64,000 bases of DNA. It comes from Clavelina lepadiformis. Its lineage: Eukaryota > Chordata > Ascidiacea > Aplousobranchia > Clavelinidae. The stretch spans positions 23,994,860 through 24,058,859 of the forward strand of contig NC_135244.1 of NCBI RefSeq assembly GCF_947623445.1. The letters are read 5' to 3'. The position numbers and the translations under genes were made by a program. This document shows positions 23,877-64,000 of the stretch, piece by piece. A model generated the notes under the pieces. It was not told the DNA's origin. It worked only from the letters and a program-made list of their open reading frames with translations, and ran no database searches. Position 1 is the stretch's first letter. Each line of letters begins with the position of its first letter.

Positions 23877-24678
23877 TGACGACTGGTTTGGACCACGTCA
23901 CTACCTCACAATAAAACTGTTTGCACGGATTCGATGACGTATGAAATATACCTCATCAATATCTTTTACGTCATTGGGAATCCCCCTTCGCCTTTTGCAA
24001 GGAGGGTTAGGTGTATAAGCCATTTCAAATTTAAAGTCGACCGTTAAAACAACTATTCCCAGTCTTTTAGAGACTTTGTACGAACAATAGAGATCAAAAA
24101 AAAATCCCCGTCCAATTCGTGTTTTAAGTTTTAGCAATTTGTGGAATCTCTTTGTCTTTAAGTTCAAAATTTTCTGTAATTGTCTTACATAGAAATCTCT
24201 ATTTATTTTAATTTGATGAATTTTGTGTACAATTTTTGTTTATTTTTATTTCAATTATTTAACCAAGTTCGATTAGCGCCTAATGTTAACCTCTTCTTTG
24301 TACGATAGAGTCACCGTGTTGTTGATTTACATTTCTTTACGAAATACAATTTTTTGCAAACAAACGTTTTAAAAAGACAGAAGGTGAAAAAGTTATTAAT
24401 ATTCACTGAGATGGTCAAACGAAATTTCTAAGAAAATTCATTTACAAGAAGGCGGACATATTTAAACGATTTATAAGCCCACTATATCGTCGCAGTCATT
24501 TTTGAACTAGAACTGCTAATAAAAAACTAAAAGTATTTCCTAGACATTGAAGAAAACTGCAAGTCTAAGTTAAAAACCCTAATAAATGTTGTGCAACATT
24601 TCAAATGACTCAAGAAACAAACCACTGTAACTTCGACTGCTCATATAAGATTGTCAAATAAGATACGTGTAGCTCGTT
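23877..24678. other. Notum 3' UTR and non-coding spacer
   Basis: An AATAAA at about 23910 probably ends the Notum transcript. The rest is AT-rich with no recognisable gene up to the tRNA at 24679. Confidence 0.5.
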
Positions 24679-24750
24679 GCGTCGATGGTGTAACGGTTAG
24701 CATTGGTGCCTTCCAAGCACTAGTTCCGGGTTCGACTCCCGGTCGACGCA
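24679..24750 (+). tRNA. tRNA-Gly (anticodon UCC)
   Basis: The 72-nt cloverleaf has acceptor stem GCGTCGA/TCGACGC with discriminator A. The anticodon arm GGTGC-CTTCCAA-GCACT carries anticodon TCC. The T arm is CCGGG-TTCGACT-CCCGG. An internal A box (TGGTGTAACGG) and B box (GGTTCGACTCC) for RNA polymerase III are present. There is no intron and no encoded CCA, as expected in a nuclear eukaryotic gene. It stands alone; no second tRNA is seen in the window. Confidence 0.95.
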
Positions 24751-25840
24751 ATCCATTTTTTTCAACAATCGTCAGGTATCAGGTAGAGTAACTTTATCAA
24801 AATGATTTTCGTCACAAATGAATTTGGCCTACTTGTGAAATAAACTACATTTTCAACCAATCAATGGTTTTATTTTTCTACAAAGCATTTCAACGCAAAC
24901 GTTTACCGCGTCCTCATGGCACTTAACTAAGCGTATAATGCTTCTTGTTGTAGAAGAAATGTTGATTCCAACTCTCACCATTTCTTTGTTATCGGAAATC
25001 ACTCACATGCGTTTTCAATTCTTCGGATAAACATTTCGTTGAAGGACTCAGATGAACCCATACCGTGCAAGAAGACTAATGACATTGTGACTAAACTTAC
25101 TAAAGGTTTGTATCGATTGATGCCTACGTCACAGAGGATGGACTGCCGGATTAAAAACGTCAAAGGCGACTGACTACGAGCAATTTACAAAGATGTAAAT
25201 TTCAAAACTAATCTCTAACTGACCTCAAACAAAGTATTTCTGTAGTTTTTGGTGCAACTCTGTCATTTTATATTTTCAAAGCATCTCCCAAGCTCAAAAA
25301 TTTGGGTAGCAATGGTACCTTGCTATACAGTAGAATTTATCACGTAAGAAGTGGTACGAGTAATGTGAATTATATCATCGTCAATTATGTCAGGCTTAGC
25401 CTAGGGTTACCATACGCCCGGAATTTCGGTGTTGGAATCTGTGTCCGGAAATAACGTGTTCTAATGTATGAAGTTCTAGCATCTAGTAAGTTATGTTTAA
25501 CTTGAAATAATGTGCACGTGTTGTGAAAATGATAATTTCAACTTTCTGCGGACTTCAAGGCCTATCGGGTAAAAGGCCTCGCCCAAGCGTCAGTCTAGTG
25601 TGATTTTTCAGTTAACTTTGCTTTGTGACATAATAATTTTCATTATTTAATAATTATGCGAATTGGTTTTTTTTTTCGAGTCATTTAACTAGGTGAGTGT
25701 TTTTGTGTGATCAATTTTGCTGTTTGCTGTATAGTGACCAGACCTACCTTCGTATTTCGTAACTTTTAGGTGGTGTGTGTAGCAAAGTTGGTCTTATTTA
25801 TTTAAGCGGAAAAAGATCTTAATAAAACAGAAAGTTGTTG
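24751..25840. other. non-coding spacer left of the duplicated block
   Basis: About 1.1 kb without a recognisable gene. It is not repeated in front of segment 2, so it marks the unique DNA left of the duplication. Confidence 0.5.
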
Positions 25841-28956: not shown

Positions 28957-29667
28957 TTTTACTCAGCGCCTTTATCTAAAAGCGGCATGCTGGTGAAATT
29001 GATACATGCGCCATATTGACTTGAAAGACTGTTGTCAGATTACAAAAGGTCTCTGACGGTCTCAACGGAATGAGACGTCATGCACTGTTGGAGTCAAGAA
29101 AAATTTCGGTTTAAAAGGGGCGGAGGGGAATATTGAAAAGCACCGGGGCGTAAATAATAGCAAGTTGCAAGGCGGTGAGAAGGACTTTCTGTGTTGAAGA
29201 GACGTCGCGATGAGATAGATTGGATAAATGGGACAGATGAATATTTGATGATCAGCAGACACGTGACAATTGAACAATACTTGCCTTGACCATGACGTAT
29301 AATAAAAGAGCGAGCGAGGACAGAGCCAGTATTTTTGCGACGATTCATTCATTATACAGACAAAGAAAGTGACGTAATTCAGGGATTCACGGTTTTAAAT
29401 GTAGATTATCCATCGCGTTAATTAACGTAAATTCCTCCCAGGTCACATACCCAGGCTGCAGCAAAGAGAAGCATCTAAATATAATGGCGATAGCGATCAC
29501 AAATGACTGAGTTGTTTTCACAGAGGCCATGACTAGTAGAGCAAATGAAAATGTCGCGGTCCGGAAGGCGAACTAAACCAGGCGTAAAATCCCACGGCGA
29601 AACGAACTATTTGAAGAAATAAAAACACTTCTAACTACAACCCTTGACTCTCCACGCTTAAATAGTC
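28957..29667 (+). promoter_or_regulatory. FUT-A upstream (promoter) block P
   Basis: This block of about 700 bp lies directly in front of each fucosyltransferase start codon (28957, 47246 and 50201; shortened at about 56010). It is copied without a gene at 31912 and 58760. It starts TTTTACTCAGCGCC and contains a GC-rich box (GGGGCGGAGGGG) and several CRE-like words (GACGTCA, TGACGTA). Conservation in front of every gene copy suggests it contains the promoter; no TATA box or start site was identified with certainty. Confidence 0.55.
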
Positions 29668-31611
29668 ATGGCGCGCTCTATGAACGGGACTAAGGTTGTG
29701 GGATTTGTATTTGCTGTGTACGTCGTGTTGGTCAGTCTGTCCTACTTCAGTCCTCGTTTAACTCTTAACGCCACTGGACCGAAGAAATTTTATCCACTTC
29801 CAATGGAAAGGCCCCTGTCTGATGAAGAGTTAGAAACCTCTCCAGAAACCTCTTCAGACGAGTTAGAAACCTCTTCAATTGGAATCAAGATGCCAGCAGA
29901 AGAGCTCATCCTTCCACCCAATTCATTCAAAACAAATTTCACGGAATCAAAGAGTCCACATCAACTCAGTGAAGATGGAAATAGACTGAACGCGGCGTTG
30001 GAAGAGGCACAGGAACAGGTGGACGACACTTTACAACGCAGTCGATGTGTATTGTAGCTTATCAGAATAACAACATGTTGGTTGCATCAGTTATCAATAG
30101 CTAAGTCGAGGAGTATAAAATGATCCCTACAAAAGTAAGGGTCGTAGATTGAAACAAGATTCAACCCCGTAGGCCCACATAAGTAAACGAAAGACTTGCG
30201 AAATGTTTCACAATTATGAAATTGGTTTCATTATAAAAACTATTCATAAATTGTTATTGTTTATTTTTAGTATGACATCATAGCCTGGGATGCACCGTTC
30301 GGCTCAAAGTGGATACCAAACAACATAATAACTTCAAAATGTGGCAACTGCCAGTTTTCTTACGACAGAAGTAAGGTCGGTTGGGTCTGAGTAACCATAT
30401 GAAAGACAAAAAGTCAACTTAACTTTAAAATTTCCTTGTAATTTCTAGATAAATGATCCTTCAACAAAAGCGATCATCTTCCATTTCAACGAGGCAAGAA
30501 TCTCTAGAATGCCAAAACAGAGGTTTGTTGTTTTCTTGTAAATTTAACAATTTATGTCAGACAGAAGCGACATGTTACTTATATTTTATGCTTATTACGT
30601 GGACATATTCACAGACGAACAGACCAACATTACATCTGGTTCAGTTGGGAGTCGCCAGTCGCGCTAGGAACGCTTCGTGGTTTAACTTTGAAGGAGTTTG
30701 ATGACGTCTTTAACCTCACTATGACGTACAGGTATGACAAAAACATACAGAAGATAAAAACCAGTGTACAATATTTTCAATTTAAACCAAAAAATGAAGT
30801 CCCTTTTCATGGAACTACGTCATACAGGCGAGACTCTGACGTCTACTTCCCCTATCAAACGACTGAAAACATTTTGCAAAGAATTCACAGCCAAAGTTCT
30901 GAGAATCTCCAGCATGACTTAGATGAATTGATCAAGAGCAAGCGCAAGGTGGCGCTATGGATTGTAGGTAACTGCGGGAGCACGCCGGGAGCTCGGGCGA
31001 GGATGAAATACTCGCAGCAACTGGTGAAAGCCGGACTCGACTTAGATCGAAGAGGAGGGTGCTTTCCCAATGCGCCAAAAGTCCTTCCAAAACACAAGAG
31101 AGCTACACCTAGTTGGGACAACTTTTTAAGGCCGTACAAGTTCTACATGGCGTTCGAGAACGCTTTCTCATGCAACGATTACATAACAGAGAAGTTTTTT
31201 CTAAACTCCCTGACCCACGGACTGGTTCCTGTCGTCTTGGGAGCGAAGAAGTCGGACTACGAGGCCGTGTCCCCGAAACATTCTTTTATTTATGCGGATG
31301 ACTTTGAAAACGCAGAGAAACTTGTCGAGTATCTCCGCTACTTGGACGGGAACGACACAGCATACAGGGAGTACCTGGCCTGGCGTACACACGACCCTGA
31401 GGAGATGCCATATCACGGTAGGGCGGTGGGACTGTGTCAGCTTTGTCGGATTTTGCACGGAATCAACGTCGACAACAAATATCATGAAAACTTTGAAGAA
31501 AAATACTCAGAGATTCCCTTATATGGTCATCCTAAGAAACCTAGAATCGTTCATTCTTTAAGAAACTGGTTTTATGGAAATGAAGATAAGAAATGTATAA
31601 GTAATTACTAG
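29668..31611 (+). CDS. FUT-A, GT10 alpha-1,3-fucosyltransferase
   Basis: A Golgi type II membrane enzyme predicted to transfer fucose from GDP-fucose to glycans. Four exons join in frame: 29668-30048, 30271-30375, 30449-30522 and 30615-31611, giving 518 residues. A short cytosolic tail (MARSMNGTK) is followed by a membrane anchor at residues about 10-27. A Ser/Thr/Glu-rich stem comes next (repeated ELETS), then the GT10 catalytic region with YIWFSWESP, KVALWIVGNCGS and YKFYMAFENAFSCNDYITEK (about 364-383). The downstream part includes HGLVPVVLGAKKSDYEAV and HSFIYADDF, the nucleotide-sugar-binding signature of the family. The exon-2 donor used is GTCGGT at 30376; a stronger-looking GTAAGG five bases upstream would shift the frame into a stop. 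From intron 1 onward the gene resembles FUT-D; its promoter and early exon 1 resemble FUT-B. The acceptor specificity (Lewis, LacdiNAc or core type) cannot be told. Confidence 0.93.
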
Positions 31612-35193: not shown

Positions 35194-35644
35194 TAACGTC
35201 AGTTTGTTGTAACGAATTGTTTTGATTTTACACCTAGTACTGCTTTTCTGTTACATTGAAATATTTCAGTTAAAATTAAATCCTAAAATTTGTTGGATTT
35301 TTTTGCTATTGTGCTATTTTCAGAGTTTCAGAGTAATTCTTTTTTCTCAATATTCTGCAAATTTACTTCGACATGACGGAACGCTTATCTTTTTAGTTAG
35401 TGACGTATGAATGACGTATTGTTTTCAAAAAAATAATACAAAGGGGTTAATGACGACACAAAGCATTACAAGACGGTTGAAGTTTCCTCGAGAGTGAGCG
35501 GAAGAACCTATTGAAGAATCAAAATAAATACGAGTTGATCGCGACATAGACAGCAGTGTTGCCAATTTCGTTTTTATCATTTTCACTGTTATAGCGCTGT
35601 AAAGTAAATAATGATTCGAGAAGAAATGAAAAACGGAAACTCAC
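35194..35644. other. spacer and unresolved 3' end of the LPMO-like/DOMON gene
   Basis: The terminal exon of the minus-strand gene should lie here but could not be placed. The two segments differ by small insertions around 35550, so no reading frame is shared through the likely last exon. Confidence 0.4.
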
Positions 35645-38600
35645 CGATACACACTCTCTCCTCGCTCACGTAAGTTGATTTGTGTTTGGTGACGTCACCG
35701 TCTTTCAACTTTCCACCCCACGCATATAGAAAGTAGACACATTTGTTCAGAACAAGATCGTTCGGGTCCTGCGAATATGTTAGGAAATGAACTCGCTAAA
35801 TGTATATATTGTTCGATGTTTTACGATAGGCCTTGAACTTTGAGCAGACTACGGACCTGTGCGCCGGTGAACGTTTCAAACGCTTACTTCTGTGTCGAGA
35901 GCTCGTGAGAACGAGATTTTGAGGAAACCGTCTCTGTAAGAACCACGCACATTCTCAAACGAGGCAGGTCCATTGTCAAGAGCGACACCTTCCGGTGCTT
36001 TTGAAGTGAGCCAACGATCTGTGAGTGTCAGTTCACCGCTAGATGGCTCTACCCAACCCACGGCAGCATCGGAGTTCTCCTGCGAGGATGACGTCATGTT
36101 TACATACTACAGGTGGATAATGTCTGGCTCATGCGACCACAAACAACTTGAAAGGTTTTTAACCATTTCTGGCTTTTCCGAGAAACCGACCGCAGCCCAC
36201 TGGTCTTCTTCTACGCGCGCTTTTATTTTGAAATGAACCAATCCGGTTTTTTCCCGGTATTTCCACTCCAACATGTACTCGCATTTGTCGGTCTTGCATT
36301 TCTCTGGATGACGAAACGACCCATTGTTCGATTTGCTTTCGTCATCAGGGTCGTCTGTTTGATAGAAATCATATACTGTAATACTCCAATTCATGAAGCT
36401 GTCCCCAGCTTATTGAAAAAACTTAATTTCTTTCTCAAAGGCGTATTTTCCGTAAGTCAGACATGTTGCCCGCGAAAAGATTAATGTTATTTTAAAATAT
36501 TTAAGTTTCAAAATTTGTCTGAAATCGAAGAAAAACTTAACGGAAAGATGCAAAACCACCTACCATAGAAATTAAATGATGTGGTCCCACGCTGTGACGG
36601 TTTTGTTCCGTGATACTTGAGTTCATTTATCCTGTGAAGGGAAGGTGAAATTGGCGATTCATTTCATCTGATTCACGAAACAAATAAGTGACTTCACCTG
36701 TAATAGTCATAGTCAGTAGCTGCACAACTTTCCAACCCACTCAGTGGTCGGTGGTTGAACAGATAAGGAGTTTGCCCACGGGCCCATATAAGCATCACCT
36801 CGTCGTCCCTCAACGAATGGTCAGAAGGATCGGACGAGACGAGGTTCCTGTGACGTAATAAACGATGACGCGCGATCACTAAGAAATGGGATCAACCATG
36901 CATATCAATCAACATATTAGAGATGTTTCCGTTTCACAATATCGTGTCCAGCTCGGTAAAAGATTTCGGAGGATCTTTCCTTAAAAAAATAAACATGAAC
37001 GCGTCGCGATATACGGCGATGGCGACCTTCTAAACTTCACGTGGAGAATTCCGTCCTCGCGTCGGGCGACGGCCGCTGTGAGGTCATCACTTCCGCCGAA
37101 CCAGGGGTCATGTTTTGGGCTCGCCCTGTCCCTCGTATACATATCCAAGACACGGTGAAGATTGCCCTCCGCCGTCGCTGAGGTTAGAAGAAAATTTAGC
37201 GCTTTGTCTATGACGCCATAAACACATTTGCAGAATAAACCAAATTACCGTAAATTATATCAGAGCAGTCCATTGGATGTAAGATGTCCTTGTAGCCCGG
37301 TCCCGGCTCAACATCGGGCTCCGGCTCAGGATCTCCTTTCGTTTTCCGGTTAGAACTCGGGGAAGATTTGCTATTCGGTTTCGGTTCTGGTTCAGGGGGA
37401 AGTTTGTCTATAAAAGACTCGAAAGTCAGTTGGTCGGAAATAAGAAATTCCAAATTGGTCAAACAATCAACATATTGTGTAGAATATCTAGGTTAATAAT
37501 AAGCAGAAAACATGACACAGTGACATTGTTTCGGTTTTCTTGAAATGACCTTTCACCTGAACTTGGTAGAACGTCATTAAACGTTTTTTTCGCCCACTCG
37601 GCGGCAGCAGAGATGTTTCCAGCGTTGCAAAAAATTTTGATCATATTTTCCTGAACAATTGAAATTTATCAAAAGTCCATTAAAAAATGCCGCCCAGAAT
37701 TTAATCTAAGGCTTACGTCATCATTTCGCTTATCAACCACTACCCGCCGAGCTCTTTGTTGCCCTCTACCGTACTTCAAAGAAATAAATCTTCTGCGCCG
37801 GGTGGCTTCTACGTCTGTTGATAGAGAGCGATGCCACTGGCAATATTAGTGCTACTCAGACGATAGGAATTTTCTTATGAAGTTTACTGTATGTTACGGA
37901 CTATTTTAACCACTGCACCCAAAGATAGTCAATGTACTGACTTTAAGCTACACCAAAATTGCAGCTATGCAAGGATAATGCAATTAATGCAACTATAACT
38001 ATAGATACATGAATTACATCAACTAGTGATTTGTTAGCCAGGGTGGCCTGACGTCATATTCACATCATACCATTGTTATCGGACGTTTCGTCATTAACTC
38101 CGTCATCGCCTTCAGAACTTGAGCTGGTGCTGAGAGGAAAATCCTAAAAAATGCAACAAAATGAGGCAACTGTATGGCATTATGACGTCATGGGTAAAAT
38201 GCACCGCCTCAAATCCAACTGTGTAATAAAAATCCCGGTTCCCAAACAGTTGATGCTTCCTTATGACTGTATTAAACGCCCATGCTACTCTCAAAGTTGT
38301 GTCTGACAAATTGCGGTTTTTAACCTGTTTGTTCCCTCTTGTAAAAAATTTAATTTGCGAATCTTTCACAAAGTTTTTTTTAGGAATTTCACCTCGAAAT
38401 GCTTCGTCATTTGCTTGTTCAAAAAAAGTTTATTTCGGCCCCGATCTGGGATATTTTAATAGAATTTTACATCCCTTGATGATTCCGGTGTATTTAGATT
38501 GATGGTCACCAGCTGGCTGCATTCTGGCTCAAAGTATATGCACAGTCATCATTACCTTGCATTTCTTATCAATGTCATCTGGCCTCCACCCAATGGCGCA

Positions 38601-41328
38601 CCAAGTGTCGGTTTCAACACGCAGAGCAATTTCCACCTGAGGGCGATCGTTGATCAATCTCCAAAAAAGTCTGGAAAATAATAAAATGGGATACGATGAA
38701 AGAAATTTTACGATTTGATTAAAATACCCGAGGGGGAGTCAATTTCGAAAGACTGAAATCTAAAACCAAGCCTGCCAAAAATGTTTCCATAGAAATCTCA
38801 CTCGAACTTGGGATTGTCGTAGAGCACCACCTTGTGGAAGTCCTTTTCATCGGATTCGTCCAACTTTGCCTCTGAAAGCTCCGATTCTAACCAATAAGAA
38901 CAGCAATGACTGGATAGTTAGGATAGTTTGGACAACCTTCGTGCAGAGACCCAAAGTTTGCGAGGGGAAACGTTCAACTTACACGTTAAAATAGAAAAAC
39001 AGTTTGCTTGGCACTAAATAACGGTTTCACTCGTTTTTACTACACGGGGACCATTTTGCAACTTGCTACAGTGCGCAGAGGTAGGTAGTCGGCACTTGAA
39101 AAGAATTGTCGGTAACAGTAAAAAATGGCAAAAACTTGGCAAAAAATGTACTGACGGTTCCGGTATTCGGTACTATTTGAAAAACGTAGTTCGGTTCTTT
39201 TTCGGTACTTGATACCGGTACTTTTTGTGTAAAAGATCCTTCTGCAAATGCAATGTTTGCAGCTATTATGCCCTCTATTATTAGTAAAGGTTACTCCAAG
39301 TCAAAACATATGTGACGTTAATCGCTTGCAATTTTACTTGACATTTTTAGATTAAAAAAGATCAACAGATGCTAAAATTAGTATTAAGGATTAATTAACA
39401 TGTATTTTGGAACACATACTTGTAAAAATTTTGAAATTATCACGTGAAAGTACCGAGTACCGGGACCAACCGAATTTTCTTGAAAAAAGTAATTTGTTAC
39501 AGAGATTCGGTACATTTTTTCAAAAGTACCGACGGTGCAGTAATTCGGTATTGTAGTACCGCGGTTGCCCAACTATGTCAGTGCGCATGCGCAACTTAAC
39601 ATCATCGCATTTTAACGAAGACACCTGGTCCACCTTTCTCGCAACTTCCACCCATCCAGCCCGGTTCGCAGAAGCAGAACTTGCTCGGGAAATTCGTCGA
39701 ATCCACGTCCACGCATCTTCCGTGCGCGCAGTCGCCATCATCCGCGCATTCGTTCTCATGCTCGCACCTGCGCGGAAATCGACTCACATCATCTGACCCC
39801 GTCGCTCGCACTGACCGCTCTTACCTCTCGCCCTCGTATCTCGCCGCGCATGCGCATTTCCCGTTTTCACAAGTACCGCCGTTTAGACACTTGTTGTCAT
39901 AGCAACCACCGTTTACGTCAGCTTTGATGAAATGAAAAAGTTTAATGTTTGAAGAGAGAAAGTTCGGTTGCGCGGATAACTTTAAAACAACTGAACTATT
40001 TTCTTTTCAAATAAAAACCGACCGGAAGCTTACCGTCGGAAACCATTGTGACGTCAGCACATGACCAGAACAAGTATCCATCCGATGTGTTCTGATTGGT
40101 CCATTCTGACGCTTGCTTTATGATACGTAGAACGCAGTGATCGCAGGCAATGTCGCTTTTGAGCGTTACCTCGTGGTTCAGTCTCCTACATCATATGGCC
40201 GCATGGTGGAAAGCGAGAAATAATATCGAAAAAGTACGAAGATGATTATTATTAACTCGCAGGTATTTAATATAAATTCATGATTTATTGTTAACTTTGT
40301 ATTAAAATAAATAGCGACTGACGTGGAATCATCTTTATAAATAAAATTTGAATCTGTTAGCTCAGAAAGAACAGCGCCCTCCGTGTCAAGAAGTTGCAAT
40401 TTGATTCCTCCCTGAAACAATTAAGAAATCTTCTGATCTGGTGTCGATTTTATATCCAGACATGATCGATTATTTGCGCGAATAACACAAAGTGTTTCCG
40501 TCTAAACCTGTTACAAATACAATCTAAATCTGTTGCAATATATTTTATAACAGGCTGCTTATGTCGAAGTCACCACGTTCAATTGTTCATCAACTTAGGC
40601 GTGTTATACAAACTTCACTCATATAACATTAAAATAACAAACAATTATGCATAATATACATGTAATATACGTGATTATAAATAATTAGTTATTATATAAG
40701 ACATATAACCGTTGAAAAGGGTTGCGCATCCACATTCAACTGATTAAACAAGAAATACAAGCCCGATATAAACCGGTGCAATCACTGTGTCAAGGAGAAA
40801 GTAAAGTAAATAATAAAATATAAAAAAAGTCACCAGATGCGGGTAGGCGACGTGCCACGTCACATTGAAGGGTGTTCCCGCCGCCAATGAGGTCATAATT
40901 TTATGTTCTGATTCGTAGAAAAAACGTAAACATGATTGGAATTAACACATAAATCATAGCAATGTGTTAACGGAGTAAAAAACCGTTGAAAACTGAAAAG
41001 GTAGAAATTAATGGGTTGGACAGATCTAATGGCGGTGACGTCATATCGAAAGAAACGTACAGAGCCCGTTCACCTTTGTTAAACGTCATTCCGCAAGGCC
41101 CCTCGCTTTGTGAATTGTCCAGAAAGTCGAACGCGAACGGACGCGCCGGAGGGAAAGTCAAAACCACGTGACCAGTGACGTCATAAAGAAATACCTACCC
41201 GATGCAATAAAGGGTTATGTCATGGATACTGGCAATGTATAAGGTATAGCAGAGTATAATGTACCGACATGCAACACCTATCTCACCACAAGAAGAAATG
41301 TGATCAACGTCGTAAGTGTCTTTGCCAT
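35645..41328 (-). CDS. secreted LPMO-like / EGF / DOMON multidomain protein (segment 1 copy)
   Basis: Nineteen exons join in frame: 41287-41328, 41074-41194, 40834-40907, 40323-40411, 40034-40185, 39825-39921, 39634-39767, 38802-38886, 38556-38670, 38071-38143, 37717-37814, 37557-37650, 37249-37407, 37027-37177, 36698-36847, 36564-36631, 36164-36375, 35888-36079 and 35645-35768. This gives at least 743 residues; the last exon is unresolved. The signal peptide is MAKTLTTLITFLLVVFLYDV, with predicted cleavage leaving His23 first (HVVLTFPPARPF). Residues 23-159 look like an LPMO-like beta-sandwich: PCGM, WHVAYPH (His73, His78), then CDHCVLR and FWSCADV. Two EGF-like modules follow (about 160-236). 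A first DOMON domain (WRLI, WCAIGWRP, MDCSDIIYG, DPWFGGSDDL, LIWARGQ) is split by an acidic and Pro-rich insertion. A second DOMON domain (WAAVGFSEKPEM, DAAVGWV) follows. The domain order is seen in the sequence; copper and haem binding are inferred from the families. The substrate is unknown. Confidence 0.8.
39076..39577. mobile_element. hAT-type element in an intron of the DOMON gene
   Basis: The diverged inverted ends are CAGAGGTAGGTAGTC on the left and, as reverse complement, CATAGTTGGGCAACC on the right. Flanks share CAGTGCG (39069-39075 and 39579-39585), extending to an imperfect 8-bp repeat. The interior is full of GGTACCG-like words in both orientations. It sits in intron 7 (38887-39633). 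No transposase is visible. Confidence 0.6.
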
Positions 41329-47245: not shown

Positions 47246-47956
47246 TTTTACTCAGCGCCTTTATCTAAAAGCGGCATGCTGGTGAAATTGATACATGCGC
47301 CATATTGACTTGAAAGACTGTTGTCAGATTACAAAAGGTCTCTGACGGTCTCAACGGAATGAGACGTCATGCACTGTTGGAGTCAAGAAAAATTTCGGTT
47401 TAAAAGGGGCGGAGGGGAATATTGAAAAGCACCGGGGCGTAAATAATAGCAAGTTGCAAGGCGGTGAGAAGGACTTTCTGTGCTGAAGAGACGTCGCGAT
47501 GAGATAGTTTGGATAAATGGGACAGATGAATATTTGATGATCAGCAGACACGTGACAATTGAACAATACTTGCCTTGACCATGACGTATAATGAAAGAGC
47601 GAGCGAGGACAGAGCCAGTATTTTTGCGACGATTCATTCATTATACAGACAAAGAAAGTGACGTAATTCAGGAATTCACGGTTTTAAATGTAGATTATCC
47701 ATCGCGTTAATTAACGTAAGTTCCTCCCAGGTCACATACCCAGGCTGCAGCAAAGAGAAGCATCTAAATATAATGGCGATAGCGATCACAAATGACTGAG
47801 TTGTTTTCACAGAGGCCATGACTAGTAGAGCAAATGAAAATGTCGCGGTCCGGAAGGCGAACTAAACCAGGCGTAAAATTCCACGGCGAAACGAACTATT
47901 TGAAGAAATAAAAACACTTCTAACTACAACCCTTGACTCTCCACGCTTAAATAGTC
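47246..47956 (+). promoter_or_regulatory. FUT-B upstream (promoter) block P
   Basis: Near-identical to the block in front of FUT-A, including the stretch ATAAATGGGACAGATGAATA near 47513 that the copies in front of FUT-C and after FUT-D lack in part. Confidence 0.55.
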
Positions 47957-49900
47957 ATGGCGCGCTCTATGAACGGGACTAAGGTTGTAGGATTTGTATT
48001 TGCTGTGTACGTCGTGTTGGTCAGTCTGTCCTACTTCAGTCCTCGTTTAACTCTTAACGCCACTGGACCGAAGAAATTTTATCCACTTCCGATGGAAAGG
48101 CCCCTGTCTGATGAAGAGTTAGAAACCTCTCCAGAAACCTCTTCAGACGAGTTAGAAACCTCTGCAATTGGAATAAAGATGCCAGCAGAAGAGCTCATCC
48201 TTCCACCCAATTCACTCAAAACAAACTTCACGGAATCAAAGAGTCCACATCAACTCAGTGGAGATGGAAATAGACTGAGGGTGGCGTTGGAAGAGGCACA
48301 GGAACAGGTGGACGACACTTTACAACGCAGTCGATGTGTTTTGTAGCTTATCAGAATAGCAACATGTTGGTTGCATCAGTTATCAATAGTTAAGTCGTGG
48401 AGTATAAAATGATCGCTACAAAAGTAAGGCTTGTAGATTGATACAAGATTCAACCCCGCAGGCCCACATAAGTAAACGAAGAACTTGTGAAATGTTTCAG
48501 AATTATAAATTTTATTTCCTTATAAAAACTATTCATAAATTGTTATTGTTTATTTTTAGTATGACATCATAGCCTGGGATGCACCGTTCGGCTCAAAGTG
48601 GATACCAAACAACATAATAACTTCAAAATGTTGCAACTGCCAGTTTTCTTACGACAGAAGTAAGGTCGGTTGGGTCTTAGTAACAATATGAAAGACATGA
48701 ATTCAACTTAACTTTAAAATTTCCTTGTAATTTCTAGATAAATGATCCTTCAACGAAAGCGGTTATCTTCCATTTCAACGAGGCTCGAATCTCTAGAATG
48801 CCAAAACAGAGGTTTGCTGTTTTCTTGTAAATTTAACAATTTATGTCAGACAGAAGCGACATGTTACTTGTATTTTATGCTTATTACTTGGATATATTCA
48901 CAGACGAACAGACCAATATTACATCTGGTTCAATTGGGAGTCGCCAGTCGCGCTAGGAACGCTTCGTGGTTTAACTTTGAAGGAGTTTGATGACGTCTTT
49001 AACATCACTATGACGTACAGGTATGACAGAAACATTAAGAAATTAAACACCAGTGTACAATATTTTCAAATTAAACCAAAAGATGAAAACCCTTTTCATG
49101 AAACTACGTCATACAGGCGAGACTCTGACGTCTACTTCCCCTATCAAACGATTGAAGACATTTCGCAAAGAATTCACGACCAAGATTCGGGGAATCTCCA
49201 ACATGACTTAGATGAATTGATAAAGAGCAAGCGCAAGGTGGCGCTGTGGATCGTTGGAAATTGCGGGAGCACGCCGGGAGCTCGGGCGAGGATGAAATAC
49301 TCGGAGCAACTGGTGAAAGCCGGACTCGACTTAGATAGAAGAGGACGGTGCTTTCCCAATGCTCCAAAAGTCCTATCAAAGAACAAGAGAGCTACACCTA
49401 GTTGGGACAACTTTTTAAGGCCGTACAAGTTCTACATGGCATTCGAGAACGCTTTCTCATGCAACGATTACATAACAGAGAAGTTTTTTATAAACTCCCT
49501 CACCCACGGATTGGTTCCTGTCGTCTTGGGAGCGAAGAAGTCGGACTACGAGGCCGTGTCCCCGAATCATTCTTTTATTTATGCGGATGACTTTGAAAAC
49601 GCAGAGAAACTTGTCGAATATCTCCGCTACTTGGACGGGAACGACACAGCATACAGGGAGTACCTGGCCTGGCGAACACACGACCCTGAGGAGATGCCAT
49701 ATCACGGTAGAGCGGTGGGATTGTGTCAGCTTTGTCGGATTTTGCACGGAATCAACGTCGACAATAAATATGATGAAAACTTTAAAGAAAAATACTCAGA
49801 TATTCCCTTATATGGTCATCCTAAGAAACCTAGAATCGTTCATTCTTTAAGAAACTGGTTTTATGGAAATGAAGATAAGAAATGTATAAGTAATTACTAA
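47957..49900 (+). CDS. FUT-B, GT10 alpha-1,3-fucosyltransferase
   Basis: Exons 47957-48337, 48560-48664, 48738-48811 and 48904-49900 join in frame to 518 residues, with the same anchor, stem and GT10 signature as FUT-A. It is the most distinct of the four in the last exon: NIKKLNTSVQYFQIKPKDEN, TIEDISQRIHDQD, RRGRCFPN and KFFINSL. Exon 2 reads SKCCNCQF where the others have a Gly or Ser before the second Cys of the pair. The stop codon is TAA (CTAACGTC), the form present before the hAT insertion in FUT-C. There are no signs of decay. Confidence 0.93.
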
Positions 49901-50200: not shown

Positions 50201-50903
50201 TTTTACTCAGCGCCTTTATCTAAAAGCGGCATGCTGGTGAAATTGATACATGCGCCATATTGACTTGAAAGACTGTTGTCAGATTAAGAAAGATCATTGA
50301 CGGTCTCAAAGGAATGAGACGTCATGCACTGTTGGAGTCAAGAAAAAATTCGGTTTAAAAGGGGCGGAGGGGAATATTGAAAAGCACCGGGGCGTAAATA
50401 ATAGCAAATTGCAAGGCAGTTAGAAGGACTTTCTGTGCTGAAGAGACGTCGCGATGAGATAGATTGGTCAGATGAATATTTGATGATCAGCAGACACATG
50501 ACAATTGAACAATATTTGCCTTGACCATGACGTCTAATAAAAGAGTGAGCGTTGTCAGAGCCAGTATTTTTGCGACGATTCATTCATTATACAGACAAAG
50601 AAAGTGACGTAATTCAGGAATTCACGGTTTTAAATGTAAATTATCCATCGCGGTTAAATAACGTAAATGTCTCCCTGGTCACAGACCCAAGCTGCAGCAA
50701 AGAGAAGCATCTAAATATAATGGCGATAGCGATCACAAATGAGTGAGTTGTTTTCACAGAGGCCATGACCAGTAGAGCAAATGAAAATGTCGCGGTCCGG
50801 AAGGCGAACTAAACCAGGCGTAAAATTCCACGGCGAAACGAACTATTTGAAGAAATAAAAACACTTCTAACCACAACCCTTGACTCTCCACGCTTAAATA
50901 GTC
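50201..50903 (+). promoter_or_regulatory. FUT-C upstream (promoter) block P
   Basis: The block lies between the FUT-B 3' flank and the FUT-C start codon, so FUT-B and FUT-C are direct tandem copies about 2.95 kb apart (start to start). Confidence 0.55.
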
Positions 50904-52847
50904 ATGGCGCGTTCTATGAACGGGACTAAGGTTGTGGGATTTGTAATTGCTGTGTACGTCGTGTTGGTCAGTTTGTCCTACTTCAGCCCTCGTCTAACTC
51001 TCAACGCCACTGGACCGAAGAAATTTTATCCGCTTCCAATGGAAAGGCCCCTGTCTGATAAAGAGTTAGAAACCTCTCCAGAAACCTCTTCAGACGAGTT
51101 AGAAACCTCTTCAATTGGAATCAAGATGCCAGCAGAAGAGCTCATTCTTCCACCCAATTCACTCAGAACAAACTTCACGGAGTCAAAGAGTCCACATCAA
51201 CTCAGTGGAGATGGAAATAGACTGAATGCGGCGTTGGAAGAGGCACAGGAACAGGTGGACGACATTTTACAACGCAGTCGATGTGTATTGTAGCTTATCA
51301 GAATAGCAACATGTTGGTTGCATCAGTTATCAATAGTTAAGTCGTGAAGTTTAAAATGATCCTTACAAAAGTAAGGCTTGTAGATTGATACAAGATTCAA
51401 CCCCGTAGGCCTACATAAGTAAACGAATAACTTGTGAAATGTTTTATAACTATAGAGATTGTTACATTATAAAAACTATTCATAAATTGTTATTGTTTAT
51501 TTTCAGTATGACATCATAGCCTGGGATGCACCGTTCGGCTCAAAGTGGATACCAAACAACATAATAACTTCAAAATGTGGCAGCTGCCAGTTTTCTTACG
51601 ACAGAAGTAAGGTCGGTTGGGTCTGAGTAACAATATGAAAGACAAAAAGTCAACTTAACTTTAAAATTTCCTTGTAATTTCTAGATAAATGATCCTTCAA
51701 CGAAAGCGGTCATCTTCCATTTCAACGAAGCTCGAATCTCTAGAATGCCAAAACAGAGGTTTGCTGTTTTCTTCTAAATTTAACAATTTATCTCAGACAG
51801 AAGCGACATGTTACTCGTATTTTATGCTTATTACTTGGACATATTCACAGACGAACAGACCAATATTACATCTGGTTCAGTTGGGAATCGCCAGTGGCGC
51901 TAGGAACGCTTCGTGGTTTAACTTTGAAGGAGTTTGATGACGTCTTTAACCTCACTATGACGTACAGGTATGACAAAAACATACAGAAAATGAAAACTAG
52001 TTTACAATATTTTCAATTTATACCAAAAGATGAAAACCCTTTTCATGAAACTACGTCATACAGGCGGGACTCTGACGTCTACTTCCCCTATCAAACGACT
52101 GAAAACATTTCGCAAAGAATTCACAGCCAAAGTTCTGAGAATCTCCAACATGACTTAGATGAATTGATCAAGAGCAAGCGCAAGATGGCGCTATGGATTG
52201 TAGGTAACTGCGGTAGCACGCCGGGAGCTCGGGCGAGGATGAAATACTCGGAGCAACTGGTGAAAGCCGGACTCGACTTAGATCGAAGAGGAGGGTGCTT
52301 TCCCAATGCGCCAAAAGTCCTGCCAAAGAACAAGAGAGCTACACCTAGTTGGGACAACTTTTTAAGGCCGTACAAGTTTTACATGGCATTCGAGAACGCT
52401 TTCTCATGCAACGATTACATAACAGAGAAGTTTTTTCAAAACTCCCTCACCCACGGACTGGTTCCTGTCGTCTTGGGAGCGAAGAAGTCGGACTACGAGG
52501 CCGTGTCCCCGAATCATTCTTTTATTTATGCGGATGACTTTGAAAACGCAGAGAAACTTGTCGAATATCTCCGCTACTTGGACGGGAACGACACAGCATA
52601 CAGTGAGTACCTGGCCTGGCGTACACACGACCCTGAGGAGATGCCATATCACGGTAGGGCGGTGGGATTGTGTCAGCTTTGTCGGATTTTGCACGGAATC
52701 AACGTCGACAATAAATATGATGAAAACTTTAAAGAAAAATACTCAGAGATTCCCTTATATGGTCATCCTAAGAAACCAAGAATCGTTCATTCGTTAAGAA
52801 ACTGGTTTTATGGAAATGAAGATAAGAAATGTATAAGTAATTACTAG
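50904..52847 (+). CDS. FUT-C, GT10 alpha-1,3-fucosyltransferase with a transposon-derived stop codon
   Basis: Exons 50904-51284, 51507-51611, 51685-51758 and 51851-52847 join in frame to 518 residues. Features include the anchor residues VIAV (shared with FUT-D), the stem repeat with one change (SDKELETS), KPDENP-type sequence in the last exon and KFFQNSL. All GT10 motifs are kept (FENAFSCNDYITEK, GLVPVVLGAKKSDYEAV). The coding sequence ends at the codon for the final Tyr, and the stop codon TAG (52845-52847) is the first three bases of an inserted hAT element. The original 3' flank resumes after 53425. The 3' UTR therefore now begins with 581 bp of transposon. Confidence 0.92.
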
Positions 52848-54186: not shown

Positions 54187-54613
54187 GGTGTGATGTGGAA
54201 GAGGTGATGTGGAAGAGGTGATGTGGAGGAGGTGATGTGGAGGAGGTGATGTGGAGGAGGTGATGTGCAGGAGGTGATGTGGAGGAGGTGATGTGCAGGA
54301 GGTGATGTGGAGGAGGTGATGTGGAGGAGGTGATGTGGAGGAGGTGATGTGGAGGAGGTGATGTGGAGGAGGTGATGTGGAGGAGGTGATGTGGAGGAGG
54401 TGATGTGGAGGAGGTGATGTGGAGGAGGTGATGTGGAGGAGGTGATGTGGAGGAGGTGATGTGGAGGAGATGATGAGGAGGAGGTGATGTGGAGGAGTTG
54501 ATGTGGAGGAGGTGATGTGGAGGCGGTGATGTGGAGGAGGTGATGTGGAGGAGATGATGAGGAGGAGGTGATGTGGAGGAGGTGATGTGGAGGAGGTGAT
54601 GTGGAGGAGGTGA
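54187..54613. repeat. 14-bp minisatellite, about 30 units
   Basis: A tandem array of GTGATGTGGAGGAG with a few variant units (GGAAGAG, GTGCAGGAG, GATGATGAGGAG). It lies between FUT-C and FUT-D and has no counterpart in segment 1. Because 14 is not a multiple of three and the unit lacks stops, the minus strand stays open in all three frames with the same 14-residue repeat (HHLLHITSSTSPPP). These long frames are not evidence of a gene. Confidence 0.95.
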
Positions 54614-56009: not shown

Positions 56010-56538
56010 CTTCGGTTTAAAAGGGGCGGAGGGGAATATTGAAAAGCACCGGGGCGTAAATAATAGCAAGTTGCAAGGCGGTTAGAAGGACTTTCTGTGT
56101 TGAAGAGACGTCGCGATGAGATAGATGGGACAGATGAATATTTGATGATCAGCAGACACGTGACAATTGAACAATACTTGCCTTGACCATGACGTATAAT
56201 AAAAGAGCGAGCGAGGACAGAGCCAGTATTTTTGCGACGATTCATTCATTATACAGACAAAGAAAGTGACGTAATTCAAGAATTCACGGTTTTAAATGTA
56301 AATTATCCATCGCGGTTAATTAACGTAAGTTCCTCCCCGGTCACAGACCCGGGCTGCAGCAAAGAGATCACAAATGACTGAGTTGTTTTCACAGAGGCCA
56401 TGACCAGTAGAGCAAATGAAAATGTCGCGGTCCGGAAGGCGAACTAAACCAGGCGTAAAATTCCACGGCGAAACGAACTATTTGAAGAAATAAAAACACT
56501 TCTAACTACAACCCTTGACTCTCCACGCTTAAATAGTC
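56010..56538 (+). promoter_or_regulatory. FUT-D upstream block P, shortened
   Basis: This block begins only at the TTCGGTTTAAAAGGGGCGG part, about 135 bp into the full version. It lacks a further short stretch near 56365 (GAAGCATCTAAATATAATGG). The region next to the start codon is intact. Confidence 0.55.
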
Positions 56539-58459
56539 ATGGCGCGTTCTATGAACGGGACTAAGGTTGTGGGATTTGTAATTGCTGTGTACGTCGTGTT
56601 GGTCAGTCTGTCCTACTTCAGCCCTCGTCTAACTCTTAACGCCACTGGACCGAAGAAATTTTATCCGCTTCCAATGGAAAGGCCCCTGTCTGATGAAGAG
56701 TTAGAAACCTCTCCAGAAACCTCTTCAGACGGAATAAAGATGCCAGCAGAAGAGCTCATTCTTCCACTCAATTCACTCAAAACAAATTTCACCGAGTCAA
56801 AGAGTCCACATCAACTCAGTGGAGATGGAAATAGACTGAGGGCGGCGTTGGAAGAGGCACAGGAACAGGTGGACGACACTTTACAACGCAGTCGATGTGT
56901 ATTGTAGCTTATCAGAATAACAACATGTTGGTTGCATCAGTTATCAATAGCTAAGTCGTGGAGTATAAAATGATCCCTACAAAAGTAAGGGTCGTAGATT
57001 GAAACAAGATTCAACCCCGTAGGCCCACATAAGTAAACGAAAGACTTGCGAAATGTTTCACAATTATGAAATTGGTTTCATTATAAAAACTATTCATAAA
57101 TTGTTATTGTTTATTTTTAGTATGACATCATAGCCTGGGATGCACCGTTCGGCTCAAAGTGGATAAAAAACAACTTAATAACTTCAAAATGTGGCAACTG
57201 CCAGTTTTCTTACGACAGAAGTAAGGTCGGTTGGGTCTGAGTAACAATATGAAAGACAAGAAATCAACTTAACTTTAAAATTTCCTTGTAATTTCTAGAT
57301 AAATGACTCTTCAACAAAAGCGATCATCTTCCATTTCAACGAAGCAAGAATCTCTAGAATGCCAAAACAGAGGTTTGTTATTTTCTTGTAAATTTAACAA
57401 TTTATGTCAGACAGAAGCGACAGGTTACTTTTATTTTGCTTATTACGTGGATATATTCACAGACGAACAGACCAATATTACATCTGGTTCACTTGGGAAT
57501 CGCCAGTCGCGCTAGGAACGCTTCGTGGTTTAACTTTGAAAGAGTTTGATGACGTCTTTAACCTCACTATGACGTATAGGTATGACAAAAGCATACAGAA
57601 GATAAAAACCAGTGTACAATATTTTCAATTTATACCAAAAAATGAAGTCCCTTTGCATGGAACTACGTCATACAGGCGAGACTCTGACGTCTACTTCCCC
57701 TATCAAACGACTGAAAACATTTCGCAAAGAATTCACAGCCAAGGTTCTAGGAATCTCCAAAATGACTTAGATGAATTGATCAAGAGCAAGCGCAAGGTGG
57801 CGCTATGGATTGTAGGTAACTGCGGGAGCACGCCGGGAGCTCGGGCGAGGATGAAATACTCGGAGCAACTGGTGAAAGCCGGACTCGACTTAGATCGAAG
57901 AGGAGGGTGCTTTCCCAATGCGCCAAAAGTCCTTCCAAAACACAAGAGAGCTACACCTAGTTGGGACAACTTTTTAAGGCCGTACAAGTTCTACATGGCG
58001 TTCGAGAACGCTTTCTCATGCAACGATTACATAACAGAGAAGTTTTTTCTAAACTCCCTGACCCACGGACTGGTTCCTGTCGTCTTGGGAGCGAAGAAGT
58101 CGGACTACGAGGCCGTGTCCCCGAAACATTCTTTTATTTATGCGGATGACTTTGAAAACGCAGAGAAACTTGTCGAGTATCTCCGCTACTTGGACGGGAA
58201 CGACACAGCATACAGGGAGTACCTGGCCTGGCGTACACACGACCCTGAGGAGATGCCATATCACGGTAGGGCGGTGGGACTGTGTCAGCTTTGTCGGATT
58301 TTGCACGGAATCAACGTCGACAACAAATATGATGAAAACTTTGAAAAAAAATACTCAGAGATTCCCTTATATGGTCATCCTAAGAAACCTAGAATCGTTC
58401 ATTCTTTAAGAAACTGGTTTTATGGAAATGAAGATAAGAAATGTATAAGTAATTACTAG
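56539..58459 (+). CDS. FUT-D, GT10 alpha-1,3-fucosyltransferase
   Basis: Exons 56539-56898, 57121-57225, 57299-57372 and 57463-58459 join in frame to 511 residues. Exon 1 is 21 bases shorter than in the other copies and lacks one ELETS-type repeat of the stem (TSSDGIK). The last exon is almost identical to FUT-A (PKNEVP, LPKHKR, KFFLNSL, SPKHSF), as are intron 1 and the whole 3' flank. All GT10 motifs are present. The stem deletion is in frame and is not expected to affect catalysis. Confidence 0.92.
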
Positions 58460-61152: not shown

Positions 61153-61612
61153 GTAATTACTAACGTCAGTTTGTTGTAACGAATTGTTTTGATTTTACAC
61201 CTTGTACTGCTTTTCTGTTACATTGAAATATTTCAGTTAAAATTAAATCCTAAAATTTGTTGGATTTTTTTGCTATTGTGCTATTTTCAGAGTTTCAGAG
61301 TAATTCTGTTTTCTCAATATTCTGCAAATTTACTTCGACATGACGGAACGCTTATCTTTTTAGTTAGTGACGTATGAATGACGTATTGTTTTCAAAAAAA
61401 TAATACAAAGGGGTTAATGACGACACAAAGCATTACAAGACAGTTGAAGTTTCCTCGAGAGCGAGCGGAAGAACCTATAGAAGAATCAAATAAATACGAG
61501 TTAATCGCGACATAGACAGCATAGTGTTGCCAATTTCGTTTTTATCATTTTCACTGTTATAGCGCTGTAAAGTAAATAATGATTCGAGAAGAAATGAAAA
61601 ACGGAAACTCAC

Positions 61613-63777
61613 CGATACACACTGTCTCCTCGCTCACGTAAGTTGATTTGTGTTTGGTGACGTCACCGTCTTTCAACTTCCCACCCCACGCATATAGAAA
61701 GTAGACACATTTGTTCAGAGCAAGATCGTTCGGGTCCTGCGAATATGTTAGGAAATGAACTCGCTAAATGTATATATTGTTCGATGTTTTACGATAAGCC
61801 TTGAACTTTGAGCAGACTACGGACCTGTGCGCCGGTGAACATTTCAAACGCTTACTTCTGTGTCGAGAGCTCGTGAGAACGAGATTTTGAGGAAACCGTC
61901 TCTGTAGGAACCGCGCACATTCTCAAACGAGGCAGGTCCATTGTCAAGAGCGACACCTTCCGGTGCTTTTGAAGTGAGCCAACGATCTGTGAGTGTCAGT
62001 TCACCGCTAGATGGCTCTACCCAACCCACGGCAGCATCGGAGTTCTCCTGCGAGGATGACGTCATGTTTACATACTACAGGTGGATAATGTCTGGCTCAT
62101 GCGACCACAAACAACTTGAAAGGTTTTTAACCATTTCTGGCTTTTCCGAGAAACCGACCGCAGCCCATTGGTCTTCTTCTACGCGCGCTTTTATTTTGAA
62201 ATGAACCAATCCGGTTTTTTCCCGGTATTTCCACTCCAACATGTACTCGCATTTGTCGGTCTTGCATTTCTCTGGATGACGAAACGACCCATTGTTCGAT
62301 TTGCTTTCGTCATCAGGGTCGTCTGTTTGATAGAAATCATATAATACTCAAATTCATGAAGCTGTCCCCAGCTTATACAAAAAACTTGATTTTTTTTTCA
62401 AAGGCGTCTTTTCCGTAAGTCAGATAAGTTGCCCGCGAAAAGATTAATGTTATTTTAAAGTAGTTAAGTTTCAAAATTTGTCTGAAATCGAAGAAAAACT
62501 TAACGGAAAGATGCAAAACCACCTACCATAGAAATTAAATGATGTGGTCCCACGCTGTGACGGTTTTGTTCCGTGATACTTGAGCTCATTTATCCTGTGA
62601 AGGGAAGGTGAAATTGGCGATTCATTTCATCTGATTCACGAAACAAATAAGTGACTTCACCTGTAATAGTCATAGTCAGTAGCTGCACAACTTTCCAACC
62701 CACTCAGTGGTCGGTGGTTGAACAGATAAGAGGTTTGCCCACGGGCCCATATAAGCATCACCTCGTCGTCCCTCAACGAATGGTCAGAAGGATCGGACGA
62801 GACGAGGTTCCTGTGACGTAATAAACGATGACGCGCGATCACTAAGAAATGGGATCAACCATGCATATCAATCAACATATTAGAGATGTTTCCGTTTCAC
62901 AATATCGTGTCCAGCTCGGTAAAATAAGTCGGAGGATCTTTCCTTAAAAAAATAAACAAGAACGCGTCGCGATATACGGCGATGGCGACCTTCTAAACTT
63001 CACGTGGAGAATTCCGTCCTCGCGTCGGGCGACGACCCCTGTGAGGTCATCACTTCCGCCGAACCAGGGGTCATGTTTCGGGCTCGCCCTGTCCCTCGTA
63101 TACATATCCAAGACGCGGTGAAGATTGCCCTCCGCCGTCGCTGAGATTGGAAGAAAATTTAGCGCTTTGTCTATGACGCCATAAGCACATTTGCAGAATA
63201 AACCAAATTACCGTAAATTATATCAGAGCAGTCCATTGGATGTAAGATGTCCTTGTAGCCCGGTCCCGGCTCAACATTTGGCTCCGGTTCGGGATCTCCT
63301 TTCGTTTTCCGGTTAGAACTCGGGGAAGATTTGCTATTCGGTTTCGGTTCTGGTTCAGGGTGAAGTTTGTCTATAAAAGACTCAAAAGTCAGTTGGTCGG
63401 AAATAAAAAATTCCAAAATGGTCAAACAATCAACATATTGTGTAGAATATATAGGTTAATAATAAGCAGAAAACATGACACAGTGACATTGTTTCGGTTT
63501 TCTTGAAATGACCTTTCACCTGAACTTGGTCGAACGTCATTAAACGTTTCCTTCGCCCACTCGGCGGCAGCAGAGATGTTCCCAGCATTGCAAAAAACTT
63601 TGATCATATTTTCCTGAACAATTGGAATTCATCAAAAGTCCATTAAAAAATGCCGCCCGGAATTTAATCTAAGGCTTACGTCATTATCTCGTTTATCAAC
63701 CAATTCCCGCCGAGCTCTTTGTTGCCCTCTACCGTACTTCAAAGAAATAAATCTTTTGCGCCGGGTGGCTTCTACGT
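61613..63777 (-). CDS. LPMO-like/EGF/DOMON protein, segment 2 copy, 3' part (runs off right edge)
   Basis: Nine exons match exons 11-19 of the segment 1 gene: 63680-63777, 63520-63613, 63212-63370, 62990-63140, 62661-62810, 62527-62594, 62132-62346, 61856-62047 and 61613-61736. They cover the end of the first DOMON domain and the second DOMON domain. The N-terminal LPMO-like and EGF exons would lie beyond the right edge. All visible exons keep the frame, with a few substitutions (for example PEPNVEP for PEPDVEP). The exon at 62132-62346 is three bases longer: a small deletion removes the acceptor used in segment 1, and the nearest AG (TTTGAG) adds one residue in frame. As in segment 1, the terminal exon is unresolved. 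Confidence 0.75.
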
Positions 63778-64000
63778 CTGTTGATAGAGAGCGATGCCAC
63801 TGGCAATATTAGTGCTACTCAGACGATAGGAATTTCTTTAAGAAGTTTACTGTATGTTACGGACTATTTTAACCACTGCACCCAAAGATAGTCAATGTAC
63901 TGACTTTAAGCTACACCAAAATTGCAGCTATGCAAGGATAATGCAATTAATGCAACTATAACTATAAATACATGAATTACATCAACTAGTGATTTGTTAG

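Follow-up and report, generated by a model that had tools for sequence, protein, structure and literature searches.

Lytic polysaccharide monooxygenases (LPMOs) need electrons, and in fungi the cytochrome of cellobiose dehydrogenase (CDH) feeds electrons to them; to our knowledge, the electron supply of animal LPMOs is an open question. In this work we describe a gene of the ascidian Clavelina lepadiformis (gene A), located in a 64,000-nucleotide stretch of contig NC_135244.1 that was analysed as a whole (the window; C5:23994860-24058859 in genome coordinates). The predicted product consists, in order, of a signal peptide, a domain that begins with histidine, two EGF-like modules, two DOMON domains and a hydrophobic tail. 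We put at roughly 0.6 the probability that it is a surface-anchored copper oxidoreductase of the LPMO superfamily with a built-in haem relay, acting in substrate oxidation.

Several described systems share parts of this architecture. For the AA15 LPMO TdAA15A (PDB 5msz), the described residues include His1, His91, the axial Tyr184 and Ala89, and the fusions named for AA15 comprise carbohydrate-binding modules and glycoside hydrolases, including a tunicate AA15-GH18, with neither EGF nor DOMON among those named (PMC5823890). The combination of an LPMO_10 domain with DOMON or EGF domains has been on record since 2019, when one sentence of Voshol et al. placed such sequences as an early branch of an LPMO tree; the domain combination is that of gene A, and the section concerned names neither genes nor species and describes no residues, anchor or haem ligands (PMC6950343). 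An LPMO orthogroup was present in all tunicates sampled and exclusive to them among the chordates sampled, in a passage that does not specify AA15 or the gene A family (PMC8704543), and DOMON proteins have been reported from corals in an account where an LPMO-like domain is not mentioned (PMC3204972). Our searches of the open-licence literature, including those for tunicates, ascidians, Ciona and metazoans, found no characterisation of a protein combining an LPMO domain with DOMONs. The CDH cytochrome (AA8) and the DOMONs of CYBDOM and AIR12 proteins resemble those of gene A in having a Met/His pair for haem b; however, the gene A chain contains neither a flavin dehydrogenase nor a cytochrome b561, and its copper head is covalently attached.

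Gene A runs on the minus strand from 41328 to 35425 and comprises 20 exons, with GT-AG boundaries at 19 of 19 introns and an open frame kept throughout its 763 residues. Its features, together with the part of a second copy (B) that falls in the window, are as follows (window coordinates, all on the minus strand):

41287..41328: exon 1, the ATG and first 14 signal-peptide residues (MAKTLTTLITFLLV), with a GT donor; the copy B exon has one changed residue.
41074..41194: exon 2, end of the signal peptide (VFLYDVTG), start of the LPMO-like domain and PCG motif; codon of the putative brace His23 at 41170-41168.
40834..40907: exon 3, WHVAYPHL with Trp72, His73 (40854-40852) and Tyr76; codon of the putative second brace residue, His78, at 40839-40837.
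40323..40411: exon 4, middle of the LPMO-like domain (GGIKLQLLD...), GT-AG and in frame.
40034..40185: exon 5, CDHC, FWSCAD and the end of the LPMO-like domain; codon of the candidate axial aromatic, Phe148, at 40070-40068.
39634..39921: exons 6-7 (39921-39825, 39767-39634), the two EGF-like modules.
38556..38886: exons 8-9 (38886-38802, 38670-38556), N-terminal part of DOMON1.
37249..38143: exons 10-13 (38143-38071, 37814-37717, 37650-37557, 37407-37249), DOMON1 linker, then HPMDCSD with the haem-Met candidate Met437 (37273-37271).
36564..37177: exons 14-16 (37177-37027, 36847-36698, 36631-36564), C-terminal part of DOMON1 with the haem-His candidate His527 (36753-36751).
35645..36354: exons 17-19 (36354-36164, 36079-35888, 35768-35645), DOMON2 with Met631 (36166-36164) and His724 (35684-35682).
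35425..35507: exon 20, small-residue stretch, spacer, hydrophobic C-terminus resembling a glycosylphosphatidylinositol (GPI) anchor signal, and stop; acceptor AG, donor in exon 19 and a match in copy B.
61392..64000: 3' part of copy B from exon 11 onwards, in a block 97.5% identical; the remainder lies beyond the window.

The spliced minus-strand gene proposed by the first-pass annotation of this DNA is thus borne out, and the motifs it listed (PCGM, WHVAYPH, CDHCVLR and FWSCADV) all fall, together with HVVLTFPPARPF, inside the first domain, residues 23-159. An end of the gene at 35645 was rejected, as the exon there has a donor leading to exon 20, which contributes GSSAHSRGNFNRLVMLCVVINPFVLFF and the stop and whose counterpart in copy B differs by 2 residues.

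Searches with the first domains of A and C identified at least five genes of this type, a lower bound given that the search of the 209-Mb genome scored best candidates only. Genes A and B lie on contig C5 (B at C5:24062188-24056254), C on C2, and D and E on C9. The 20-exon layout recurs in copy B. The two copies are separated by 24 synonymous and 24 nonsynonymous differences (dN/dS 0.27), which in the 137 codons of the first domain become 6 and 0, a pattern indicating that purifying selection acts between the two. Genes C, D and E keep the signal peptide, the His-first domain (43-51% identity), the EGF-like region and the two DOMONs, to which C adds a third. Their models come from a purpose-written spliced aligner and have incomplete 3' ends, with frames after DOMON2 located by eye; the junction after PCG in C is uncertain, and 38 draft-model residues were omitted from its row in the family alignments and from searches with its domain. 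Family alignments contain rows for A, C, D and E, the first domain of B being identical to that of A.

In all five genes histidine directly follows a hydrophobic signal sequence, cleavage being predicted from the -3 residue (V, A or S) and the -1 residue (G or S): VTG/H in A and B, VQS/H in C, AEG/H in D and SEG/H in E. The earlier claim that cleavage exposes this histidine therefore holds at the level of sequence. A wrong gene model, in which another N-terminal exon or other splice sites are used and the histidine is not exposed, would be suggested by the signal peptide of A and B, which is split over two exons and depends on a 42-base first exon in a model derived from genomic DNA. We consider this highly improbable: the same first exon is found in copy B, and C, D and E encode the signal peptide and HVRLTFPPAR in one continuous, intron-free frame with a Met codon, which removes most of the doubt over the split exon in A.

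Profile comparisons assign the His-first domain to the LPMO superfamily. On the gene A domain alone the Pfam model LPMO_10 scores 25.3-25.8 bits (cut-off 23), while BIM1-like (PF20238), whose match spans the whole domain including His1, reaches 27.7 bits on the whole protein (cut-off 27) and 25.3 and 26.1 bits, under that cut-off, on the domain alone. BIM1-like and LPMO_10 match all four family rows (best E-values 4.6e-6 and 1e-5), as does SCE4755 (NCBIfam NF043005), the nearest model by E-value (best 2.2e-8). Searched against the PDB up to an E-value of 10, the family profile matched one sequence, TdAA15A (5msz), at 0.0084. With myxobacterial relatives added and a limit of 1, 5msz (3.9e-5) and AoAA13 (4opb; 0.0049) were the sole matches below 0.01. 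Further down, and not significant alone, were 7p3u ('Endoglucanase, putative'; 0.076) and 4oy7 ('Putative secreted cellulose binding protein'; 0.086), which we take to be AA11 and AA10 LPMOs, respectively, and a carbonic anhydrase appeared at 0.7. The brace histidine is aligned in 5msz, 4opb, 7p3u and 4oy7. In addition, an AA15 profile built from four AA15-like genes of the same genome plus 5msz matched the family profile at 94.8% (E 5.5e-8), and at 96.8% (E 3e-10) once bacterial relatives were added, compared with 0.2% (E 0.24) for a control against the family's own DOMON2 profile; this control and the A/B comparison rule out a chance resemblance of the gene A head. Hidden Markov model and profile comparison of residues 23-159, with AA15 5msz as best PDB match, hence supports the LPMO-like domain of the first-pass annotation.

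The domain shares with AA15, as represented by TdAA15A and the AA15-like genes of the same genome, the LPMO profile, the brace histidines, an axial aromatic, the C..C pair and a CAD-type motif. It differs in a shorter region between the second His and CAD, in a Tyr at the position of Ala89 and in lacking the segment GN-x-WG...G-x-G-x-QE. Membership of AA15 was rejected on the last two points, the Tyr before the second His being present in 4/4 family rows against Ala in 5/5 AA15 rows, with both marks inferred from our own AA15 alignment. Membership of SCE4755 was likewise rejected, gene A scoring 34.2 bits, far under the curated cut-off of 75. The family profile returned 7 stretches in genome contigs and 31 in viral contigs, none a relative, and tblastn of the gene C domain against plasmids matched nothing. 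The SCE4755 and BIM1-like models gave no match in the C. lepadiformis genome, where the domains nonetheless exist, since that search runs exon by exon.

Within this domain, the putative copper brace is formed by His23 and His78, both of which are invariant in 22/22 aligned domains (four family rows from this genome and 18 bacterial rows, out of 20 SCE4755 loci taken), with His78 falling on His91 of TdAA15A. Of the two candidates that the first-pass annotation had offered for the second ligand, His78 is retained and His73, which is His in 1/18 bacterial rows, is discarded. The residues invariant across the 22 domains are His1, PCG, Trp72, the second His, the C..C pair and CAD. Phe148 aligns with Tyr184 of TdAA15A (Y..CADI) and with the Phe of the AA15-like genes of this genome (F..C(A/S)D), and its position is occupied by Phe in 4 domains and Tyr in 18. 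In the phylum of a 'Myxococcales bacterium', the SCE4755 model matches 67 of 377 genomes (64 over cut-off); it matched 0/8 other bacterial genomes. Like the gene A head, SCE4755 proteins open with His and carry the P, PCG, Trp, second His, C..C, aromatic and CAD features, but they have an axial Tyr where gene A has Phe, and gene A scores well below their cut-off. Little is known of this bacterial family, whose members begin with His, have an LPMO-type brace and sometimes number two or more per genome; the open-licence literature did not yield SCE4755 by name.

Pfam DOMON (PF03351) scores 152.1 bits on whole protein A (cut-off 32.7). The match falls into three stretches, since a linker divides DOMON1 (45.2 bits for its C-terminal part by itself); DOMON2, matched at residues 590-713, is whole. 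A Met/His pair is kept in both DOMONs of 5/5 genes at a spacing of 90 (DOMON1) or 91-93 (DOMON2), the candidate haem-His being set by motif and spacing, not by direct alignment to CDH. The corresponding spacing is 93 in Drosophila CG8399 (PMC10691727) and 84 for the Met90/His174 pair proposed in Arabidopsis HYP1 (PMC10784544), and the pair is described as not conserved in sugar-binding DOMONs or dopamine beta-hydroxylase (PMC10691727). The DOMON1 Met is invariant in all five genes despite the variable linker, and profiles of the two DOMONs align Met on Met (96.6%, E 5.5e-10). Against the PDB, the DOMON2 profile matched dopamine beta-hydroxylase (0.0012) and, more weakly, cellobiose dehydrogenase (0.03) and the pyranose dehydrogenase cytochrome (0.36). 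The family Met falls on a Met in the latter two, presumably their haem ligand, and not in dopamine beta-hydroxylase. Both the two DOMONs and their haem type, as first annotated, are thereby supported at the level of sequence. With regard to the two EGF modules, the first is over the Pfam cut-off (22.9 bits on whole protein A, cut-off 21.5), whereas the second is recognised by sub-threshold EGF models and its cysteines.

The DOMON1 linker is basic, Pro/Glu-rich and variable in length across the family. In gene A (window 37814-37717) it contains RRRR and RARR clusters, which we take to resemble furin sites by consensus; C has RAKR nearby, and none were seen in D and E. In C, D and E the linker holds longer repeats of the PEPEP type, which vary in length and immediately precede the haem-Met candidate of DOMON1. 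Other DOMON clusters occur at C7:14278224-14291311, 15278000-15298360 and 17020514-17077684, and the searches with LPMO-like domains matched nothing on C7.

The first-pass annotation described the protein as secreted. The C-termini of A and B consist of small residues, a spacer and a hydrophobic tail, as judged by eye and by hydropathy (mean 2.69 over the last 15 residues of A), and the GPI-like tail of exon 20 indicates that protein A is probably membrane-anchored rather than free. In E, DOMON2 is followed by a SEA domain (39.1 bits, cut-off 26.4), the matching fragment of D scoring 19.5, under cut-off. After it in both genes come related hydrophobic stretches, EEWKIAVI... and LEDWKIAVI... 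(hydropathy 3.34 and 2.87), and we infer that these transmembrane-type frames belong to D and E. The A/B tail makes simple secretion unlikely, as do the SEA and transmembrane-type frames lying 3' of D and E.

The sequences support the gene and its family, a histidine following the signal peptide, the residues of the brace and axial site, the Met/His pairs of the DOMONs, the SEA domain of E and the transmembrane-type frames; on this basis we infer the following mechanism. Once the signal peptide is removed, His23 (through its amino group and side chain) and His78 would hold one copper in an LPMO-like fold, with Phe148 axial. In each DOMON the Met/His pair would ligate a b-type haem, from which electrons would flow to the copper and convert Cu(II) to Cu(I). 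With O2 or H2O2 the reduced copper could then oxidise its substrate, which is probably a surface-coat or tunic glycan. The EGF modules and linkers may serve to keep the copper head at a distance from haems and membrane. Proteins A and B would be held by a GPI anchor, following processing of their tails, whereas in D and E a transmembrane helix beyond SEA would do this. The notion of a self-contained redox protein accordingly survives in part: a predicted copper head and haem-type DOMONs do occur in one chain, but as there is no dehydrogenase domain, electrons would be needed from outside. A more specific scenario, in which this membrane-tethered, haem-wired animal LPMO draws electrons from the cell surface (ascorbate or a cytochrome b561 being possible donors) and oxidatively attacks the coat, at its cellulose or other glycans, while these are being deposited, is tentative, and we rate it well short of even odds.

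A number of observations weigh against the proposed oxidoreductase. With respect to the head, LPMO_10 is absent from the list (E-values up to 1) of the Pfam scan of whole protein A, the BIM1-like and LPMO_10 scores are about equal, and a phmmer search of the PDB with the single gene A domain gave three unrelated matches (E 0.84-1.3), none of them an LPMO. Where AA15 has Ala, two positions ahead of the second His, the family has an invariant Tyr (Tyr76) and the bacterial rows have Ile, Val or Thr, and this Tyr would make the copper pocket different from that of AA15. With respect to the DOMONs, DOMON2 matches CDH weakly and over a stretch that ends short of the His, the DOMON1 profile found no cytochrome and nothing meaningful in the PDB, and a large loop is inserted beside the DOMON1 haem site. 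Finally, some histidine-brace proteins (BIM1/X325, CopC) have been linked to copper transport, not oxygenation (PMC10952591).

This last point leads to the main rival, to which we give most weight among the alternatives while regarding it as unlikely: a copper-acquisition or cupric-reductase system at the cell surface, in which a BIM1-like head would capture Cu(II), the haem DOMONs would reduce it and Cu(I) would pass to a transporter, with no oxidation of a substrate. The BIM1-like match to whole protein A is over its cut-off and takes in His1, and Bim1 itself carries a GPI anchor and has been associated with proteins of copper transport (PMC10952591); Cbi1/Bim1 works with Ctr1 in copper uptake (PMC9258870), and the DOMON and cytochrome b561 of HYP1 form a ferric/cupric reductase (PMC10784544). 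However, the score is borderline and drops under the cut-off on the domain alone, the solved relatives found by profile are LPMOs and not X325/BIM1 proteins, and the predicted axial residue is aromatic, as in LPMOs, whereas the fourth copper site of X325 is an Asp (PMC10952591), a comparison made through the axial residue and not the position of the Asp. Somewhat less likely again is a matrix organiser akin to insect Knickkopf, whose DOMONs would bind or order an extracellular polysaccharide, possibly tunic cellulose, with the head as a non-catalytic binding module. EGF and SEA are matrix-type modules, which counts in its favour. Knickkopf is a DOMON protein at the apical membrane that binds, protects and organises chitin, much as gene A is proposed to act on an extracellular polysaccharide at the cell surface, although it has DM13 domains and the architecture described for it includes no LPMO-like head (PMC11354708). 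DOMONs as such are able to bind haem or sugars (PMC10784544), but both DOMONs here keep the Met/His pair that sugar-binding DOMONs do not conserve (PMC10691727), all five genes have the brace residues unchanged, and the heads of A and B show no amino-acid change.

As regards genomic setting, the window contains direct duplications of 3.3-6.5 kb at ~97% identity (26006-32534/44289-50824, 29095-34319/56001-61157 and 34699-38037/60665-64000). A divergence of 2.5%, as between A and B, is within the range of ascidian alleles, and copy B may thus be an assembly duplication of alleles. The tandem placement on one contig and the unequal copy numbers of neighbouring blocks favour a real duplication, and we read the blocks as segmental duplications, with a haplotype duplication in the assembly being less likely. 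Between and beside A and B, in these duplicated blocks, lie four tandem GT10 fucosyltransferase-like genes (plus strand; Pfam 163-166 bits for the long open reading frame of each):

29662-31608, plus strand: GT10 fucosyltransferase-like copy.
47951-49897, plus strand: GT10 fucosyltransferase-like copy.
50898-52844, plus strand: GT10 fucosyltransferase-like copy.
56533-58456, plus strand: GT10 fucosyltransferase-like copy.

A minisatellite at 54190-54613 has a 14-base unit (GTGATGTGGAGGAG) in ~30 copies with 95% matches, and a tRNA-Gly (tcc) gene lies at 24678-24751 on the plus strand. Elsewhere in the genome, a cellulose-synthase gene fragment at C9:12557714-12558331 scores 106 bits to CelA, a loose model that also matched 11/14 control genomes, and 30.5 bits to Pfam Cellulose_synt (cut-off 24.7); CelA is its best NCBIfam model, under the full-length cut-off. 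This fragment fits a tunicate; no result of the analysis ties the gene A protein to cellulose. A GH6 model, run exon by exon on the same genome, was unmatched, and the four AA15-like genes are separate from the family described here.

With a conserved brace head and two conserved haem-type DOMONs in one chain, this family of five genes, which shows signs of constraint, opens electron transfer from haem to copper inside a single molecule to direct testing. If the proposal is true, a haem-wired animal LPMO would parallel the fungal pair of cellobiose dehydrogenase and LPMO, but with the electron supply covalently built in and under the control of the cell. Furthermore, the likeness of the head to myxobacterial proteins prompts the question of where it came from. 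In a cellulose-making animal, such proteins could, if tethered at the surface, allow the cell to trim or loosen its own coat oxidatively, beside the roles of the AA15-like genes.

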